The notes beneath the pieces were generated by a model that was not told where the DNA came from, ran no database searches, and was given only the letters and a program-made list of their open reading frames with translations. The translations under genes were made by a program, and so were the position numbers. From IMG/VR virus record IMGVR_UViG_3300023180_000468, positions 1 through 21,520 of that record: 21,520 bases of DNA. One strand, written 5' to 3'. Below are positions 16,346 through 21,520 of the stretch, in pieces. Numbering within the stretch: position 1 is the stretch's first letter; each line of letters begins with the position of its first letter. Origin of the DNA: a virus.

Positions 16346-18322
16346 TTATTTCCTCTCTAATGCTCCGTTTGAATAACTTGAAGTATAGTAATCTCTAGTG
16401 AATGAGACGCCAGAAATATCTTCGCCAGATGCGATGACATCTTTAACCATATTTATTCGACTCTTGGAAACATCCAATGTCAAATAGAGATCTTTTAGAC
16501 CAACAACATCATTGGATTCTGGGAATGCTTGAACCTCAATAATTGAGTTATCAGCAACAGTAGAAGTGATGTTAATTGTGTTGAGAAGTATCTCACCTTT
16601 CTTATAATCAACTGTTCCAGCATCCTTAGCAACAACTAATCTATTTCCATTTTTATCAATCTTTACAATGGAAATAATACCCTTTTCAATGTTAAGAGAT
16701 GCTGGTCTTCTCAGGAATGTTTGTGATGCCTCAGTAGCATTTGTGATTTGATCAATACCAGTACCAATAATTGGAGCATCGGTAAAATAAACAATATCAG
16801 AACTACCTGCTAGTGTAAATCCAGTAGACTTAATGTTCAAACCATTAGGATTGACATGGAATCTGTTACCAAAGCAGAGTTCATACTGAGCAAATTGGTT
16901 CTTCAGAACCTTCATATCTCTTCTAATCTTGACTTTAGTGATATTAGAAGTGATAGCAGTGTCAACTCTATCAATAAGTTGTAGTGCTTTACTATATTTG
17001 AATCGTCCACCAAAACGATTCATGTCTACATCTTTAGAATATCTGTTCAAACCAGCAGTAATACTAGTTCTTAGATCATCTGGAGAAGAAACTTGATTAT
17101 TGTTATAGTAAATTGTTGAATCAAGTTCGATATAAAGAACTTTAAGGTCAATAATATTCTGATTGATACCAGCGATTGAGTATTGCTTCAGTCTTGATAG
17201 AATATTTTGCTTATCAAAGTCTGAAACATATGTTCCATTCTTAGGTTTGATACTAATTTGGACTGTACCAAACTTAGGAGGACTTAATTCTTCGCCACCA
17301 ACGACAGCAACCGACTCCATATTGGGATAAACGGAAGAAATAATCGCTTCATAGTCCCTTGCTGTAACTGCTCTGTACTGCGCTGAGTAAAGTCTAGGAG
17401 CAAAGTACTTAATCGACGATACATTCTCTATTTCACCGCCGTTAATCGCTCTCTGGATGGTTGTGACGGGTACTGACGCAGTAGGAATGAGTCTTACACC
17501 ACCATCATCAACAAAACTACCTTGGAAATCAAATAATGAAGGACCATTTCCTGATTCACCATCGGTAACAATATACCTGACAGTAATGACAGCGTTATTT
17601 TCTAATTCTTTTCCAAAATATCCATCACCAAACAGTAATTCATACCTTTCTTCTTGAACTTCTTGAATTAAGAATATTTCAGAGTTCTTATCAATGTTTA
17701 AAATATTATCTACAACGTGATATTCTCTTCCAAGACCAGAATCATTGATACCTTTGACATAAACTCTAACAGTTGACGTATCAATATTAGGATTATCAAG
17801 GATAAAACGCTGATCTTGTGATGTATTAACTAAAAACTGACGTGTCAGGAAAGAACCCTGATACAATTTAATAGGATTATCAGCAGTACCAAACTGAGCA
17901 ACACCATTTTCAACCGTTGCGCTGATGTTTTCAGGTACTGAGAAGCGATATGTGGTATTATCTGATGCGCCAATACACACAAGACCTGCTTCTAAGGAGA
18001 TAAATGCGCCTGAAGTACTTGTTGGAACCGCAAAAGTTACATCTGCGACTGCTGCAGTCTTTGATCTTGGGATATAACCGATGTTTCTTGCCAAAGAAAC
18101 GACGTTTTCACGTACTGTAGCGCCGTCCAGGAAGGATTCATTGACAACTAAGTTCGCATTAAACGCATTGATGTAGGTATTGTAGGCAAGAGTATCGATT
18201 AGGACAGAAAAGTTCGATCCTTCAAAGTCAAAATCCGTGAAATTGGAGTTAGCACGGAGATAATCTTTGATTTGAACCTTAATCTGGTCAAAATCTAGGT
18301 TAGTAAACTGTGTAAAAGGCAT
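16346..18322 (-). CDS. 6: Baseplate wedge protein gp6 (J-like)
   Basis: gp6 forms the inner ring of the T4-type baseplate that joins neighbouring wedges, and it is related to the baseplate J family of contractile systems. This 658-aa protein has almost the length of T4 gp6. Its N-terminus (TQFTNLDFDQIKVQIKDYLRAN, then DFDFEGSNFSVLIDTLAYNTY and SLARNIGYIPRSKTAAVADV) is typical of T4-like gp6 and J-like proteins. The centre (RYELLFGDGYFGKELENNAVI, AVTARDYEAIISSVYPN) carries the conserved J-family FGDGxxG and RDYE motifs. It begins three bases after the gp25 stop and ends three bases before the gp7 start, so it belongs to the same operon. The nearest purine-rich site, GGAGG inside the end of gp25, is about 14 bases from the start, so translation is probably coupled to gp25. 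Confidence 0.93.
   Translation of the reverse strand: MPFTQFTNLDFDQIKVQIKDYLRANSNFTDFDFEGSNFSVLIDTLAYNTYINAFNANLVVNESFLDGATVRENVVSLARNIGYIPRSKTAAVADVTFAVPTSTSGAFISLEAGLVCIGASDNTTYRFSVPENISATVENGVAQFGTADNPIKLYQGSFLTRQFLVNTSQDQRFILDNPNIDTSTVRVYVKGINDSGLGREYHVVDNILNIDKNSEIFLIQEVQEERYELLFGDGYFGKELENNAVITVRYIVTDGESGNGPSLFDFQGSFVDDGGVRLIPTASVPVTTIQRAINGGEIENVSSIKYFAPRLYSAQYRAVTARDYEAIISSVYPNMESVAVVGGEELSPPKFGTVQISIKPKNGTYVSDFDKQNILSRLKQYSIAGINQNIIDLKVLYIELDSTIYYNNNQVSSPDDLRTSITAGLNRYSKDVDMNRFGGRFKYSKALQLIDRVDTAITSNITKVKIRRDMKVLKNQFAQYELCFGNRFHVNPNGLNIKSTGFTLAGSSDIVYFTDAPIIGTGIDQITNATEASQTFLRRPASLNIEKGIISIVKIDKNGNRLVVAKDAGTVDYKKGEILLNTINITSTVADNSIIEVQAFPESNDVVGLKDLYLTLDVSKSRINMVKDVIASGEDISGVSFTRDYYTSSYSNGALERK
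16351..16358 (-). promoter_or_regulatory. Ribosome binding site of the giant gp7 gene
   Basis: The minus strand reads AGAGAGGA, eight bases before the ATG at 16342. It overlaps the last codons of gp6 and fixes the giant gene's start. Confidence 0.6.
16450..16457 (-). promoter_or_regulatory. Possible internal late promoter box AATAAATA
   Basis: The minus strand reads AATAAATA inside the 3' part of gp6, about 108 bases upstream of the giant gp7 start. It is one mismatch from TATAAATA. It encodes ordinary gp6 residues (RINM), so function is uncertain, but its position resembles that of the box before the DUF4815 gene. Confidence 0.3.
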
Positions 18323-18325
18323 TTT

Positions 18326-18727
18326 TTATCGCGTTGCCTCCAATATGAAGGAGAAGGCTTGTGGTGGAAAATCTTGCCCTACAATATCAAAGTAAACACT
18401 GACATTAAAAGAGTTATTATCAGGTCTTGGTTCAACTTGAACTCTTAAATTATCAACTCTATCCTCATAAAATTTGATAGTATTGACAATTTGGTCTTCA
18501 ATAACTCTAGCAGTAGCAAAGTCCACGAACTCAAAAAGAGAATCGCGGACATCAGTACCTAATAATGGTTGAAAAAAGCGTTCCGTCGGGATGGTTTCTA
18601 CTAAATTACGTACAGATCTAACGATTGCACGTTCATTAATGAGCACAGGCAAATCCTTTGTCACAGGATGTGGGTCAAAGGAGAAACTAATATCTTTAAA
18701 TGCTCTTGATACCCTCTGTCGCGCCAT
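18326..18727 (-). CDS. 25: Baseplate wedge protein gp25 (GPW/gp25 family)
   Basis: gp25 is the small wedge protein that helps nucleate the tail sheath on the inner baseplate in T4 and related contractile systems. The 133-aa product is close to T4 gp25 in length (132 aa). The family core is visible: INERAIVRSVRNLVETIPTERFFQP (residues 30-54), LLGTDVRDSLFEFVD (55-69), an amphipathic helix to about 85, and FYEDRVDNLRVQV (86-98). The FF-P...G-x-x-x-x-D-x-LFE pattern is the conserved fold marker. The gene is preceded by a perfect late box at 18753-18760 and followed after three bases by gp6. No strong Shine-Dalgarno sequence is visible between box and start. Confidence 0.93.
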   Translation of the reverse strand: MARQRVSRAFKDISFSFDPHPVTKDLPVLINERAIVRSVRNLVETIPTERFFQPLLGTDVRDSLFEFVDFATARVIEDQIVNTIKFYEDRVDNLRVQVEPRPDNNSFNVSVYFDIVGQDFPPQAFSFILEATR

Positions 18728-18752
18728 TTATAAGGGGTGATTTTCTTAAATT

Positions 18753-18760
18753 TATTTATA
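18753..18760 (-). promoter_or_regulatory. Late promoter box TATAAATA for the gp25-gp6-gp7 operon
   Basis: A perfect T4-type late box lies between the 51-aa gene and gp25, with 25 bases between its end and the gp25 ATG. It is the best candidate for driving the whole wedge operon late in infection. Confidence 0.75.
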
Positions 18761-18764
18761 CCCC

Positions 18765-18920
18765 TCACTCAGATTTTTGATTTGATACCTCATCATTATC
18801 AAATTCTTCTGGACTATCATTAGTCTTATGTGGCATTGACCAATAATCAGTGATTAAACTTTTAGTACCAAATGTTTGATACATGTAATCTTGATCTCTA
18901 TCTACAGGTGAATTGCCCAT
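18765..18920 (-). CDS. Small acidic protein of unknown function (51 aa)
   Basis: The ATG at 18920 opens a 51-codon frame, MGNSPVDRDQDYMYQTFGTK..., ending in an acidic, serine-rich tail (NDSPEEFDNDEVSNQKSE). It has no membrane segment and no domain that I recognise. It lies between the early-side terminator and the gp25 promoter, behind a near-consensus late box, and its stop is five bases from the late box of gp25. Its reading frame and composition look protein-like, but there is no clear ribosome site. A short competing frame starts at 18963 and ends at 18898 (21 codons). The 51-aa frame is longer and fills the gap completely, so it is preferred. Confidence 0.6.
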   Translation of the reverse strand: MGNSPVDRDQDYMYQTFGTKSLITDYWSMPHKTNDSPEEFDNDEVSNQKSE

Positions 18921-18967
18921 GATACTTTTGGTGGTATGAATCCGAAGGGTTTTTATCCCTCATGACG

Positions 18968-18975
18968 TATTTATT
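18968..18975 (-). promoter_or_regulatory. Near-consensus late promoter box AATAAATA
   Basis: The box sits directly downstream of the terminator at 18983-19005 and about 47 bases upstream of the 51-aa gene start. One base differs from TATAAATA. Its position just after a terminator is what a new late transcription unit would need. Confidence 0.5.
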
Positions 18976-18982
18976 GACGAGT

Positions 18983-19005
18983 AAAAAGGGGTCCGAAGAC
19001 CCCTT
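18983..19005 (-). terminator. Intrinsic terminator with UUCG loop
   Basis: On the minus strand an 8-bp stem AAGGGGTC/GACCCCTT closes a TTCG tetraloop and runs into a T-rich tail (18987-18983). It lies eight bases after the stop of the 50-aa gene and ends the glycosyltransferase transcription unit. The opposite strand has only a weak T-run, so it is mainly a minus-strand terminator. Confidence 0.9.
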
Positions 19006-19012
19006 ACTATTA

Positions 19013-19165
19013 TCAACCTTTACCTTGTCCGCGATACATCTTACGTGCTTTATTGCGAGAAGTCGCGGCATACTTTGTATTCGTCCCTGTGCCCTGACGA
19101 GTCTTCTTCGGTTTTCCGGGTGTAAAACCACTCTTGTTCACACCAACCTTTGCCTTAACTGCCAT
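19013..19165 (-). CDS. Small basic protein of unknown function (50 aa)
   Basis: The 50-aa product, MAVKAKVGVNKSGFTPGKPK..., is rich in lysine, arginine, glycine and threonine, and ends in NKARKMYRGQGKG. It would be strongly positively charged and probably disordered, like small nucleic-acid-binding or ribosomal-tail peptides. I recognise the style of a small conserved cyanophage protein but cannot name a function. A strong Shine-Dalgarno AAGGAGAT (19171-19178), spaced five bases, overlaps the end of the preceding gene, and a terminator follows at once. This makes it a well-supported, probably well-translated gene. Confidence 0.85.
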   Translation of the reverse strand: MAVKAKVGVNKSGFTPGKPKKTRQGTGTNTKYAATSRNKARKMYRGQGKG

Positions 19166-19167
19166 AA

Positions 19168-19332
19168 TTAATCTCCTTGTGTAATTTGTGTTTCAAGTTC
19201 CGAGGGGTTCGGAGACCCAGAAGAGTAGAAGTCCTCTGCTAGGTCTGTCATTTTATCAAAGTATTCATCTTGGGTCAAGCCTTCAGCAAGAACTTGACCT
19301 TTGTGGAGAATTGTATAAAACTCCTGCGCCAT
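19168..19332 (-). CDS. Small protein of unknown function (54 aa)
   Basis: The 54-aa frame reads MAQEFYTILHKGQVLAEGLT... and ends SGSPNPSELETQITQGD. A YTILHKG strand followed by an acidic amphipathic helix (about residues 20-37, QDEYFDKMTDLAEDFY) suggests a small folded domain. The pattern resembles small conserved cyanophage proteins, but no function is known to me. It starts two bases after the glycosyltransferase stop and ends two bases before the 50-aa gene, so all three should be co-transcribed. The start has no clear ribosome site of its own, so translation is probably coupled. Confidence 0.8.
   Translation of the reverse strand: MAQEFYTILHKGQVLAEGLTQDEYFDKMTDLAEDFYSSGSPNPSELETQITQGD
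19171..19178 (-). promoter_or_regulatory. Strong ribosome binding site of the 50-aa gene
   Basis: AAGGAGAT on the minus strand, five bases before the ATG at 19165, inside the last codons of the upstream 54-aa gene. It is the strongest Shine-Dalgarno sequence in the window. Confidence 0.85.
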
Positions 19333-19334
19333 TA

Positions 19335-20102
19335 TCAGATCACCCTTGTCTTTTCGTGACCAACTCTAATACGTGGGTCACACCAAATCTCAAAACCTGC
19401 TGCGATAGCATCAAGACAGAATGATACATCCTCTCCACACATGTCCTGTACTTCACCAGATTCAAAGACTTGCATCTTAGGAGCAAACCAAGGATACTTG
19501 ATTTCTTCGTGCTCAAAGACACCATACTTAATCAATAACCAACCAAAACCAGCATAATCAACTGTAAAAGGCTTCTTACGCTTCTGAATGGTTTCTAAAG
19601 TTTCATGATTCATAACACCACCATTGTTACGGAAGTCATCCTCTTCCATCCAATGAGCAACACTAGTGGTCATACCATCTTCAGTACAATACCAACCAGA
19701 AGCAATGTCCTTATCCATCAGAACTAACTGATAGAACTTCTCAGCATTAAACACAATGTCACTATCAATCCATAACTGATAGTCATACTGTAACTTACCA
19801 TCCCATGGTTTCTGGTCAGGTCCACGAAGTACATTAGCACCCAAACACTTACAACGGGCAAAATTCACCATAGAACTATAGTCCTGTGAAATCTGAATAC
19901 TTGCTCCGTTCTGTACTAAGTCAAAACAAAGTTGAACAAAGTTCTTCAAATAAGTATATGATACTCCTCTACCAGGTAGACAGAATACTACTGTCTTCCC
20001 TTTAATCATTTCTCTTGCCTTTGCATAATCCCATTCTACTGCTGATGGTGTAGAAGACGCAACGGGCGTTTTTGCTTTTACTGTAAATCCTTTATTTGCC
20101 AT
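19335..20102 (-). CDS. Putative GT-A-fold glycosyltransferase
   Basis: This 255-aa protein has the layout of a nucleotide-sugar-dependent glycosyltransferase of the GT-A type. A beta strand and phosphate-loop-like segment (TVVFCLPGRGVSYTYLKNF, 37-55) comes first. It is followed by an LWIDSDIVF metal-binding DxD motif (110-118), a central region YAGFGWLLIKYGVF (183-196), and a GEDVSFC...IWCDPRIRVGHE segment (223-250) carrying the usual acidic catalytic residue and C-terminal histidine. It would transfer a sugar in the cytoplasm; the acceptor (phage DNA, virion protein or host glycan) cannot be told from the sequence. The first 25 residues are lysine- and serine-rich and poorly defined. The gene lies behind a sigma70-like promoter and heads a three-gene unit ending at the UUCG terminator. 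The fold is fairly sure, the activity less so. Confidence 0.7.
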   Translation of the reverse strand: MANKGFTVKAKTPVASSTPSAVEWDYAKAREMIKGKTVVFCLPGRGVSYTYLKNFVQLCFDLVQNGASIQISQDYSSMVNFARCKCLGANVLRGPDQKPWDGKLQYDYQLWIDSDIVFNAEKFYQLVLMDKDIASGWYCTEDGMTTSVAHWMEEDDFRNNGGVMNHETLETIQKRKKPFTVDYAGFGWLLIKYGVFEHEEIKYPWFAPKMQVFESGEVQDMCGEDVSFCLDAIAAGFEIWCDPRIRVGHEKTRVI

Positions 20103-20140
20103 AATTTGGTCAAGTTTGAATGTGAATCGATTCAGAAGTA

Positions 20141-20169
20141 ATTATACTACTAATCACTGAGGTTGTCTA
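20141..20169 (-). promoter_or_regulatory. Sigma70-type promoter upstream of the glycosyltransferase
   Basis: On the minus strand TAGACA (-35, 20164-20169) and a perfect TATAAT (-10, 20141-20146) are separated by exactly 17 bases. The promoter lies in the 76-base gap after the AbrB-like gene, and the start codon is about 38 bases beyond the -10. This is the form expected for early genes read by the host RNA polymerase. Confidence 0.75.
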
Positions 20170-20178
20170 CTCCTTTAC

Positions 20179-20376
20179 TCAGTCCTTATTAACTTCAGTG
20201 ATTACAATACAGTCTCCATCAACCTCCATATTTACTTCAGTACCCTCATACCACCTAAACTCACTCAGTATCCACTCAGGTATGACAACATAATACTCTC
20301 CAGTAATTGGATCAACCTCTACGGTCGTAAAATTTTCTCCGGGATTTTTTTGCATCTGAGGTATTTGTGTTTCCAT
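20179..20376 (-). CDS. AbrB/MazE-like small protein
   Basis: The 65-aa product has the outline of a swapped-hairpin AbrB (SpoVT/MazE) DNA-binding domain: a short lead, VDPITGEYYVVIPEWILSEF (21-40), then WYEGTEVNMEVDGDCIVITEV (42-62). This matches the family pattern of a beta strand, I/V-P-x-x-I/L, an E-G-T/D turn and D/G-x-I-V-I. Family members bind DNA as dimers and often act as repressors or antitoxins. No toxin gene is adjacent, so a regulator is likelier than an antitoxin. It lies just upstream of the sigma70-type promoter of the glycosyltransferase unit and just inside the AT-rich DNA, behind a candidate promoter located in GC-rich DNA. The helix is shorter and more aromatic than in typical AbrB, so the family call is moderate. 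Confidence 0.6.
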   Translation of the reverse strand: METQIPQMQKNPGENFTTVEVDPITGEYYVVIPEWILSEFRWYEGTEVNMEVDGDCIVITEVNKD

Positions 20377-20477
20377 TTTTGTTTTATATAGAAAAACTGA
20401 GAGTTATAAAAATAGCTGGCGAAAGCAAGACTTTATAGCTTAAAGGGACCCATGGGTTTTATATACGGGGGGCGGGC

Positions 20478-20506
20478 ATTATAACGCCACACGCGCCACG
20501 GCGCAA
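20478..20506 (-). promoter_or_regulatory. Candidate sigma70-type promoter reading toward the AbrB-like gene
   Basis: On the minus strand TTGCGC (20501-20506) and TATAAT (20478-20483) are separated by 17 bases. The TATAAT is an AT island in GC-rich sequence. It would give a leader of about 95 bases before the AbrB-like start. The -35 overlaps a GC-rich hairpin, so function is uncertain. Confidence 0.5.
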
Positions 20507-20525
20507 CGCCCCCACAACGGGGGGC
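20493..20525 (-). terminator. GC-rich hairpins after the 113-aa gene
   Basis: Two adjacent hairpins are visible on the minus strand: GCCCCC/GGGGGC with a 6-base loop (20508-20525), and GCGCC/GGCGC with a 2-base loop (20493-20504). There is no T-tract, so this is a terminator-like or RNA-stabilising structure, not a classical terminator. Confidence 0.35.
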
Positions 20526-20557
20526 ACTGCCAACCACGAACCCATAAGGACTGGGGG

Positions 20558-20899
20558 TCACAGACCCTTAAGGCGGTCACGGGCAGCGGCACGGCGGTCG
20601 GCAGCGTACTGAGAGGCAGCACGGGCAGCGTTGGCGGACTTATCACCAACCCACTGGCGACCCAAACCAGTGACACGGGTGATGGTGCCACCCTTACCAG
20701 AACCAGTGGCATGGGAAGCGGTCTGACCGTCACCGTCACGGACGGAACCAACACCAGTCAGGTGACCGTATCCGTCGGTGCGCTGCATGGTCTCACCCTT
20801 ACGGGGACCACGGGTCTTAAGGCGCTTAACGGAAACCTCTTTACCAGCAGCGTTAAGGTCGGCAGCGATGGCGGTCAGGTTGGAGAGGGAAGCGTTCAT
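20558..20899 (-). CDS. Basic protein of unknown function in GC-rich DNA (113 aa)
   Basis: The frame from the ATG at 20899 gives MNASLSNLTAIAADLNAAGK..., with an N-terminal amphipathic helix, a KRLKTRGPRKGE basic segment (25-36), a glycine-, threonine- and serine-rich middle (43-82), and a C-terminal alanine- and arginine-rich helix (ANAARAASQYAADRRAAARDRLKGL, last 25 residues). The charge pattern suggests nucleic-acid contact, but no known domain is recognised. Codons end mostly in G or C, unlike the neighbours to the left. An AAAGGA site lies at 20915-20920, about 15 bases from the start, which is further than usual, and a plausible sigma70-type promoter lies upstream. A frame of 91 codons in another phase (20754-20479) overlaps it but has low-complexity valine/proline content and is rejected. 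Confidence 0.65.
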   Translation of the reverse strand: MNASLSNLTAIAADLNAAGKEVSVKRLKTRGPRKGETMQRTDGYGHLTGVGSVRDGDGQTASHATGSGKGGTITRVTGLGRQWVGDKSANAARAASQYAADRRAAARDRLKGL

Positions 20900-20929
20900 G
20901 TCGGTTGGGTGTGTTCCTTTGACTCTTAT

Positions 20930-20959
20930 AAGATACAGGGTCGGAGGGGGTCAGGTCAA
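20930..20959 (-). promoter_or_regulatory. Candidate sigma70-type promoter of the 113-aa gene
   Basis: TTGACC (20954-20959) and TATCTT (20930-20935) are spaced 18 bases apart on the minus strand. The -10 matches four of six consensus bases. The -35 falls in the loop of the hairpin at 20946-20966. Confidence 0.35.
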
Positions 20960-20966
20960 GACCCCC
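20946..20966 (-). terminator. Hairpin after the WATWNVALWI gene
   Basis: GGGGGTC/GACCCCC form a 7-bp stem with a 7-base loop, 18 bases after the stop at 20985. There is no T-tract, so it is only terminator-like. Confidence 0.35.
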
Positions 20967-20984
20967 GGACCAGTAGTCTGACCG

Positions 20985-21212
20985 TCACAGGTCCGCCAGC
21001 ATCTCATCCAGGGCAGCGGTGTCGATGGTGCCATCCATCCAGCGGGCACCGTCAGGGGTCATCTGCCCCCACATCATCTCCAGGCGGGGGATGAGGCGGT
21101 CGTAGGAGTCATAACGCTGGGCGACCTTGTAGGTCGTCTCATCATTGCTGATCCAGAGGGCGACGTTCCAGGTCGCCCAGTTTGCCCATCCGTTGAAAGT
21201 GGTTGCGGTCAT
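20985..21212 (-). CDS. Small WATWNVALWI-motif phage protein (75 aa)
   Basis: The likely start is the ATG at 21212, giving MTATTFNGWANWATWNVALW... (75 aa). The motif NGWANWATWNVALWISNDE (residues 7-25) belongs to a small family seen in phages and their hosts (GY/W-x-N-Y/W-x-T-W-N-V-A-L-W-I-x-N-D). The rest, with an alpha-helical RYDSYDRLIPRLEMMWGQ region and an acidic end (DTAALDEMLADL), is consistent with a small cytoplasmic protein. Function is unknown to me. A longer version would need a TTG start at 21269 inside the previous gene, which is less likely. No strong ribosome site is visible. It lies in the GC-rich segment, between the small membrane protein and the 113-aa gene. Confidence 0.75.
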   Translation of the reverse strand: MTATTFNGWANWATWNVALWISNDETTYKVAQRYDSYDRLIPRLEMMWGQMTPDGARWMDGTIDTAALDEMLADL

Positions 21213-21246
21213 GTCGTTTCGTTTGGTATGAGAGAATTCTACAGGG

Positions 21247-21411
21247 TCAGGGGCGGACTGCCTGCTCAATGGTGGACAGTGCGTCTGCCGTCACAGTACG
21301 GGCAGGGGTGCTGGTCCAGAAGAGAACGCCAACCGCTGCCAGGATGATGAGGCGGAACATGGTCTGATGATGGAAGGATGCGGAACGTGAGCGGGTCAGT
21401 GCTTTGATCAT
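21247..21411 (-). CDS. Small membrane protein of unknown function (54 aa)
   Basis: The frame from the ATG at 21411 gives 54 residues. A basic N-terminus (MIKALTRSRSASFHHQT) is followed by one hydrophobic segment, MFRLIILAAVGVLFW (18-32), and a short polar tail. This is a single-span membrane peptide or an uncleaved signal anchor, with the positive side toward the cytoplasm. A shorter start at Met18 is possible. The ATG overlaps the stop of the preceding gene (TGATG), which argues for translational coupling. No family was recognised. Confidence 0.55.
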   Translation of the reverse strand: MIKALTRSRSASFHHQTMFRLIILAAVGVLFWTSTPARTVTADALSTIEQAVRP

Positions 21412-21520
21412 CAGTCGCGGTCGGAGATATTCCAGGTCCCGTAGGTTCCCTGAGGGCGGGTTGCTTCCCACTTGGCGAACCACTCCTGAGTGCCAGCAGC
21501 GGCAGCATCGCGGATTGCCT
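21411..21520 (-). CDS. C-terminal fragment of a gene entering from the right edge
   Basis: The last 35 codons read AIRDAAAAGTQEWFAKWEAT... and end NISDRD before a TGA at 21411-21413. The tryptophan-rich amphipathic sequence looks like real coding, unlike the two other open phases here (arginine/proline-rich). Its stop overlaps the start of the membrane protein gene. The rest of the protein lies outside the window, so no function can be given. Confidence 0.55.
   Translation of the reverse strand, partial: AIRDAAAAGTQEWFAKWEATRPQGTYGTWNISDRD

Follow-up and report, generated by a model that had tools for sequence, protein, structure and literature searches.

The abrupt change in base composition near the right end of the window (the whole stretch of DNA that was analysed, which is an entire IMG/VR contig of 21,520 bp) is a genuine, natural feature. 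It marks the sharp edge of an array of small, swappable genes, many apparently with a switch of their own, that many marine cyanobacterial viruses keep at the same spot. The array is probably a long-lived, natural GC-rich island of small gene cassettes in a T4-like cyanophage, written in host-like codons, read early by the host and swapped by recombination. This model is based on the observed step, its conservation, the architecture of the locus, leaders shared between cassettes, one case of cassette gain and the age of the GC bias. When the composition of a phage contig jumps, this is routinely taken for a chimera or for recent host DNA; the jump described here is neither, and filters based on GC content would remove genuine phage genes.

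Position and context of the GC step

Across the window, a single changepoint is best placed at position 20465 (likelihood-ratio statistic 215), with GC rising from 38.0% on the left to 60.9% on the right. The initial annotation had placed the shift near 20460 in non-coding DNA, and the changepoint indeed falls between the MazE/AbrB-like ORF and gene A; its hand counts (44 of 60 G+C at 20581-20640 and 17 of 60 at 20101-20160) are exact. Stretches of 500 bp starting left of 19900 reach 44.4% GC at most. The four small genes reported past the step, with their preference for G/C-ending codons, were also recovered, all on the minus strand. GC3 values of genes A, B, C and D are 58, 82, 71 and 67%, gene A showing the weakest bias, while late genes of known type have a GC3 of 26-33%. 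The features of the region are:

16346..18322, minus strand: gp6 baseplate wedge gene (phrog_219, E 2e-197), GC3 27%; late, on the AT-rich side, synteny anchor
18326..18727, minus strand: gp25 baseplate wedge gene (phrog_261, E 9e-51); late, synteny anchor
19335..20102, minus strand: phrog_1574 protein (E 6e-122), final long ORF before the step
20179..20376, minus strand: MazE/AbrB-like small protein (PF04014 below cut-off; phrog_661, E 7e-12), first gene on the AT-rich side
20377..20464, minus strand: AT-rich leader with late-promoter-like sequences TCTATATAAAAC, GCTATAAAG and GTATATAAAACC, putative promoters
20445..20553, minus strand: conserved non-coding junction element, GGGTTCGTG..GGCAGTGCCCCCC-hairpin..GGCGCG..TTATAAT..TATATAAAACC, which contains the GC step
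20466..21520, no strand: GC-rich cassette island, 60.9% against 38.0% GC, cut short by the contig end
20558..20899, minus strand: gene A, 113 aa, pI 10.9, orphan modular family
20925..20966, minus strand: predicted composite stem-loop promoter of gene A, GGGGGTCTTGACCTGACCCCC ... TATCTT, with TTGACC (-35) in the loop region and a spacer of 18
20985..21212, minus strand: gene B, DUF7249 protein, 75 aa (PF23907, 53.5 bits)
21213..21246, minus strand: predicted promoter-leader of gene B, CTGTAGAATTCTCTCATACCAAACGAAACGAC, inside which contig L007 departs from the window, at 21225
21247..21411, minus strand: gene C, 54 aa, with a hydrophobic stretch (phrog_2128, E 6e-14); its start overlaps the stop of gene D
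21411..21520, minus strand: gene D, C-terminal part only (...YGTWNISDRD), ended by the contig (phrog_10986, E 0.003)

The DNA left of the step carries tail genes of the T4-like type, namely gp6, gp25 and an ORF of 4,274 aa that occupies the position of the giant structural gene. At the DNA level, Synechococcus phage S-SKS1 and Prochlorococcus phage P-SSM2 are among the closest relatives of these genes (~70% identity). S-H9-2, S-RIM32, S-CAM3 and S-PM2 also have the structural gene, gp6, gp25 and small genes in this order. The contig thus has the giant structural gene - gp6 - gp25 synteny of Kyanoviridae-type T4-like cyanophages, of which it is a 21.5-kb fragment. The phrog_1574 protein also has a weak glycosyltransferase match (phrog_34859, E 8e-5). 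Gene B scores well above the curated cut-off of 27 bits for DUF7249. The window contains no tRNA, and a tRNA-linked island was therefore rejected.

Conservation and shape of the island

The step is present in independent sequences. Contig L007, from a metagenome (3300023115) different from that of the window, matches it at 99-100% over 17462-21225, through the step. L008, L009, L068 and about 45 further IMG/VR contigs match both sides of the step at lower identity, bringing the spanning contigs to about 50 in all. Within 12 kb upstream of gp25, the best 1-kb window reaches 52% GC or more in eight of 19 isolates (S-PM2, S-RIM32, S-CAM3, S-RIM44, S-WAM2, S-H9-2, ACG-2014f and ACG-2014j) and does not pass 51% in the other eleven. 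S-PM2, S-RIM32, S-CAM3 and S-H9-2 carry a stretch of 53-61% GC at the same locus upstream of gp25, and in the 196-kb genome of S-PM2 this stretch is the sole part that exceeds 50% GC per kb. Another 500-bp stretch, of 59% GC, was observed in S-MbCM6 (L121) at a different position, ~17 kb upstream of gp25.

The mean profile of 27 non-redundant loci shows GC rising from 33% to 64% within ~100 bp and then falling steadily to ~42% over 4 kb. In the direction of transcription this is a steady climb that ends in an abrupt fall at the conserved non-coding element. The step is sharp in these 27 loci and blunter in S-CAM3, S-RIM44, ACG-2014f and S-WAM2. An alignment (A1) of nine sequences of the junction element has 27 invariant columns; invariant blocks include CGTG, GCAGT and GG.GCG. 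The junction model (R1) was found as a single copy, at the step, in eight phages (the window and seven others), with five strong and three weak matches (E 2e-4 to 6e-4); a ninth, in S-SRM01, was marginal (E 0.018). No further copies were detected in 886 kb that included the S-PM2 and S-RIM12 genomes, and an Rfam search at the step returned no known RNA family. The junction as an exceptionally stable RNA was rejected, since the hairpin has a z of -0.7 against shuffles. The hairpin has no U-tail.

Cassette architecture and turnover

An extended -10 box occurs within 80 nt upstream of 48% of 164 called island ORFs, compared to 6% in shuffles, and mostly lies 30-39 nt ahead of the start codon. Of composite elements, defined as a GC-rich hairpin plus a -10 box, the coding strand has 56, compared with 6 for the opposite strand and 2.8 in shuffles. 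S-PM2 has five such elements, for example GGGAGCAGGTTGACGCCTGCTCCC..TATACT, where the -35 box lies in the loop region and TTGACG is spaced 17 from TATACT; the window has one (20925-20966), and several island-bearing isolates have few in the same scan. Late-promoter-like sequences were found on the AT-rich side in 59 of 59 junction regions, TATATAAA in 81% of them, and TATATAA is absent from the islands. A Shine-Dalgarno-like purine tract precedes only 4% of 167 island ORFs. An exact 16-mer is shared with the leader of an unrelated family by 86 of 165 leaders; the control inside ORFs gave 0 of 164. The island leaders were observed to be A/C-rich (CAAACGA..ACC-ATG), nearly devoid of Shine-Dalgarno sequence and common to unrelated genes.

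Turnover of cassettes is illustrated by the comparison of L007 with the window. Both are 99.4% identical over 20001-21225, including genes A and B. Further upstream, gene C of L007 is diverged, and L007 carries one more promoter-leader-gene unit beside gene B. The breakpoint lies inside the gene B leader, ahead of the common ...CAAACGAAACGACATG. Gene A occurs on 63 IMG/VR contigs, many of them related, and has no relative in the phage collection. By hand count, the contig ends less than 1 kb from gene A on the island side in 19 of the 63 and on the side of the tail genes in 3. Strain variation thus seems to break assemblies at the island, which would explain where the window ends.

Gene A itself is modular: its N-terminal block (SNLTAIAADLNAAGKEV) and C-terminal block (GLGRQWVGDK.NA..ADR.AAARDRL) also occur apart, with different partners, and the block pattern (window 20558-20899, L007-L069) looks as if domain shuffling builds small proteins. 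Most island families are orphans. Known are DUF7249, Kyano_Gp96 (PF23790) of S-RIM32 and, from the island of L009, an anti-restriction-like protein (phrog_36653, E 2.5e-16); for the latter no significant match was found in the PDB, and six proteins tried against NCBIfam gave no match. The family of gene D (cluster c2) is found in 14 loci. The islands of L009 and L026 encode, ~0.76-1.53 kb from the step, a 250-aa protein with no family match that carries D...SIKHK, by eye resembling the PD-(D/E)xK nuclease motif, and that is possibly a mobility or host-directed nuclease. In S-PM2, S-PM2p074 is annotated on the strand opposite to a conserved DUF7249 ORF (23807-24058, plus strand; L006 11896-12102 corresponds to S-PM2 23768-23974), and this CDS was also called misannotated elsewhere (PMC10976474). 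The island offers a defined and testable locus at which phages of abundant marine cyanobacteria keep orphan, probably host-directed genes.

Proposed working of the island

The cassettes are transcribed toward gp25, and many would start from a sigma70-type promoter in or just after a GC-rich stem-loop, with leaders that lack a ribosome-binding purine tract. Host RNA polymerase would read them early in infection, the stem-loops, as putative terminators, would set one gene apart from the next, and translation of the host-like codons would run well on the tRNA pool of the host in its unmodified state. Past the step, the AT-rich tail genes would be read later, from TATATAAA-type promoters. Recombination within the shared promoter-leader blocks would add and remove cassettes, making the locus hypervariable. 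Speaking against this model are the unremarkable stability of the junction hairpin and its missing U-tail, the low GC3 of DUF7249 in some phages and the small number of composites in several island-bearing isolates. We infer the early timing from the promoter type and from T4-like precedent. In RNA-seq of S-PM2d, the S-PM2 island gene S-PM2d241 was up-regulated at 3 h under phosphate depletion (PMC10976474), from which it follows that this island gene at least is transcribed, but not that it is early. The locus is a clean case for the question whether a phage uses host codons in its early genes and not in its late ones.

Codon usage and cause of the high GC

Codons AGA, ACA, CCA, CAA and TTA are absent from the island of the window, while AGA makes up 71% of arginine codons in the late genes. 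Island codons fit the ribosomal-protein and elongation-factor genes of Synechococcus WH7803, the host of S-PM2, which served as reference for the codon models and may not be the host of this phage, better than average host genes, with no equally extreme case among 2000 host samples. The value of this observation as proof of translational selection is reduced, because the late codon usage of the phage with a uniform GC tilt describes the four genes of the window equally well (-1.422 against -1.423 bits per codon for the host model). For homologs of genes A and B at large the tilted model is slightly worse than the host model. Codon selection as the cause of the island GC is favoured but not proven, since the tilted model fits the window equally and the GC of island intergenic DNA is raised as well, to about 45-68%.

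A possible, though less probable, explanation is a local GC-biased process: a recombination, replication or packaging hot spot at which GC-biased gene conversion or mutation acts on coding and non-coding DNA alike, starting from a fixed junction point. The one-sided ramp with its sharp edge at a conserved, single-copy non-coding element would be expected from such a process, and it would account for the GC-rich non-coding DNA of the island and for the fit of GC-tilted late codon usage to the window. It would also agree with a 2-3 fold bump in read density downstream of the S-PM2 ORFanage, which was taken for chromosome ends (PMC4503421). The bump may lie close to the GC island, and it could also stem from GC bias in sequencing. 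However, the DUF7249 genes of S-RIM12, S-MbCM6 and S-RIM14 have a GC3 of 62-68% despite flanks of only 40-46% GC, which indicates that the effect can act at the level of the gene. Furthermore, in almost every island for which genes were called GC3 (60-86%) is higher than the GC of the intergenic DNA, and for gene A homologs the model based on host ribosomal-protein genes is ahead of the tilted model by 0.09 bits per codon. A more specific proposal, that the junction element is a fixed recombination, replication-start or chromosome-end site launching a one-sided GC-biased conversion gradient ~4 kb into the array, is rather doubtful. If true, a phage 'GC ramp' would both shuffle cassettes and drive host-like composition.

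Age and origin of the GC bias

The high GC of the island genes is, as judged from the homologs, an old and maintained state rather than the mark of fresh DNA. Homologs of DUF7249 mostly keep a GC3 of ~60-80% down to 35-50% protein identity, with at least 60% in 75 of 89 distinct sequences; gp25 homologs have a mean GC3 of 25%. At 35-50% protein identity the 4-fold sites of DUF7249 are nearly saturated (identity 0.48 observed, 0.39 expected if saturated). Retention of a high GC3 at this divergence, and against low-GC flanks, points to maintenance. Some phages have DUF7249 alleles of low GC3, for example S-SKS1 (~35%).

A recent import, in which a block from the host or from a high-GC phage has still to drift toward the phage composition, is very unlikely. 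In its favour, GC level and codons are like those of marine Synechococcus, and the locus does gain and lose genes. However, no relatives of gene A are present among the ~85,000 bacterial and archaeal genomes of GTDB, and DUF7249 is found in just 3 of 300 host-family genomes. Several phage genera carry a GC-rich stretch at this locus, and high GC3 persists at near-saturated 4-fold divergence; both also argue against it. Close relatives in the host were thus not found, and recently acquired host DNA is largely refuted as a reading; single genes may have an ancient outside origin. An assembly chimera, with two genomes fused near 20460, can be dismissed. The contig end only ~1 kb past the step, within the part of odd composition, might be cited for it, but the join is present in L007 at 99-100% from a separate metagenome, in L008, L009, L068 and the ~45 other contigs at lower identity, and in the same arrangement in isolates. 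The initial annotation had left the choice between a segment from a high-GC phage or host and an assembly join; what stands is the natural island, while the join and a recent high-GC source do not.

Comparison with known systems

No report of a GC island was found in a literature search whose coverage lay outside the defining PeSL papers and Mann 2005; within that coverage the sharp-edged island, its ramp, the host-like codons and the junction element are apparently undescribed. Small-gene regions of T4-like cyanophages have been described before. Sullivan et al. 2010 (PMC3037559) listed a hot-spot (ii) of small genes, enriched in Synechococcus phages, 'between gp46 and gp25'. In S-PM2d, gp46 lies ~60 kb from gp25 (PMC10976474 Table 1). 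The island shares with this hot-spot the small orphan genes adjoining gp25 in T4-like Synechococcus cyanophages, and the two regions are likely to be the same; the passages on that hot-spot make no mention of a local GC island or of promoter cassettes. The S-PM2 ORFanage (PMC4503421) likewise consists of small orphan genes in the same genome neighbourhood that are gained and lost as blocks. Unlike the island, the ORFanage (ORF 017-050) is not GC-rich and lies outside the GC-rich stretch (~21-25 kb in S-PM2).

In its proposed working, the island comes closest to the PeSL (promoter early stem-loop) cassettes found in hyperplastic regions of T4-like phages (Arbiol 2010; Comeau 2014; both as cited in PMC4503421). 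A search for PeSLs around the S-PM2 ORFanage, the neighbour of the island, had revealed only sparse ones (PMC4503421). As in PeSL regions, small genes lie between conserved core blocks and are split by composite stem-loop/early-promoter elements, here predicted from the excess of composites on the coding strand over the opposite strand and shuffles. These elements are common to unrelated genes and appear to serve as swap points, as seen in the L007 breakpoint, the one case at hand, and in the 16-mers shared across families. Different from PeSL regions are the sharp edge of the island, its GC content of more than 20 points above that of the genome, the host-like codons, the conserved junction element and the leaders devoid of a purine tract.
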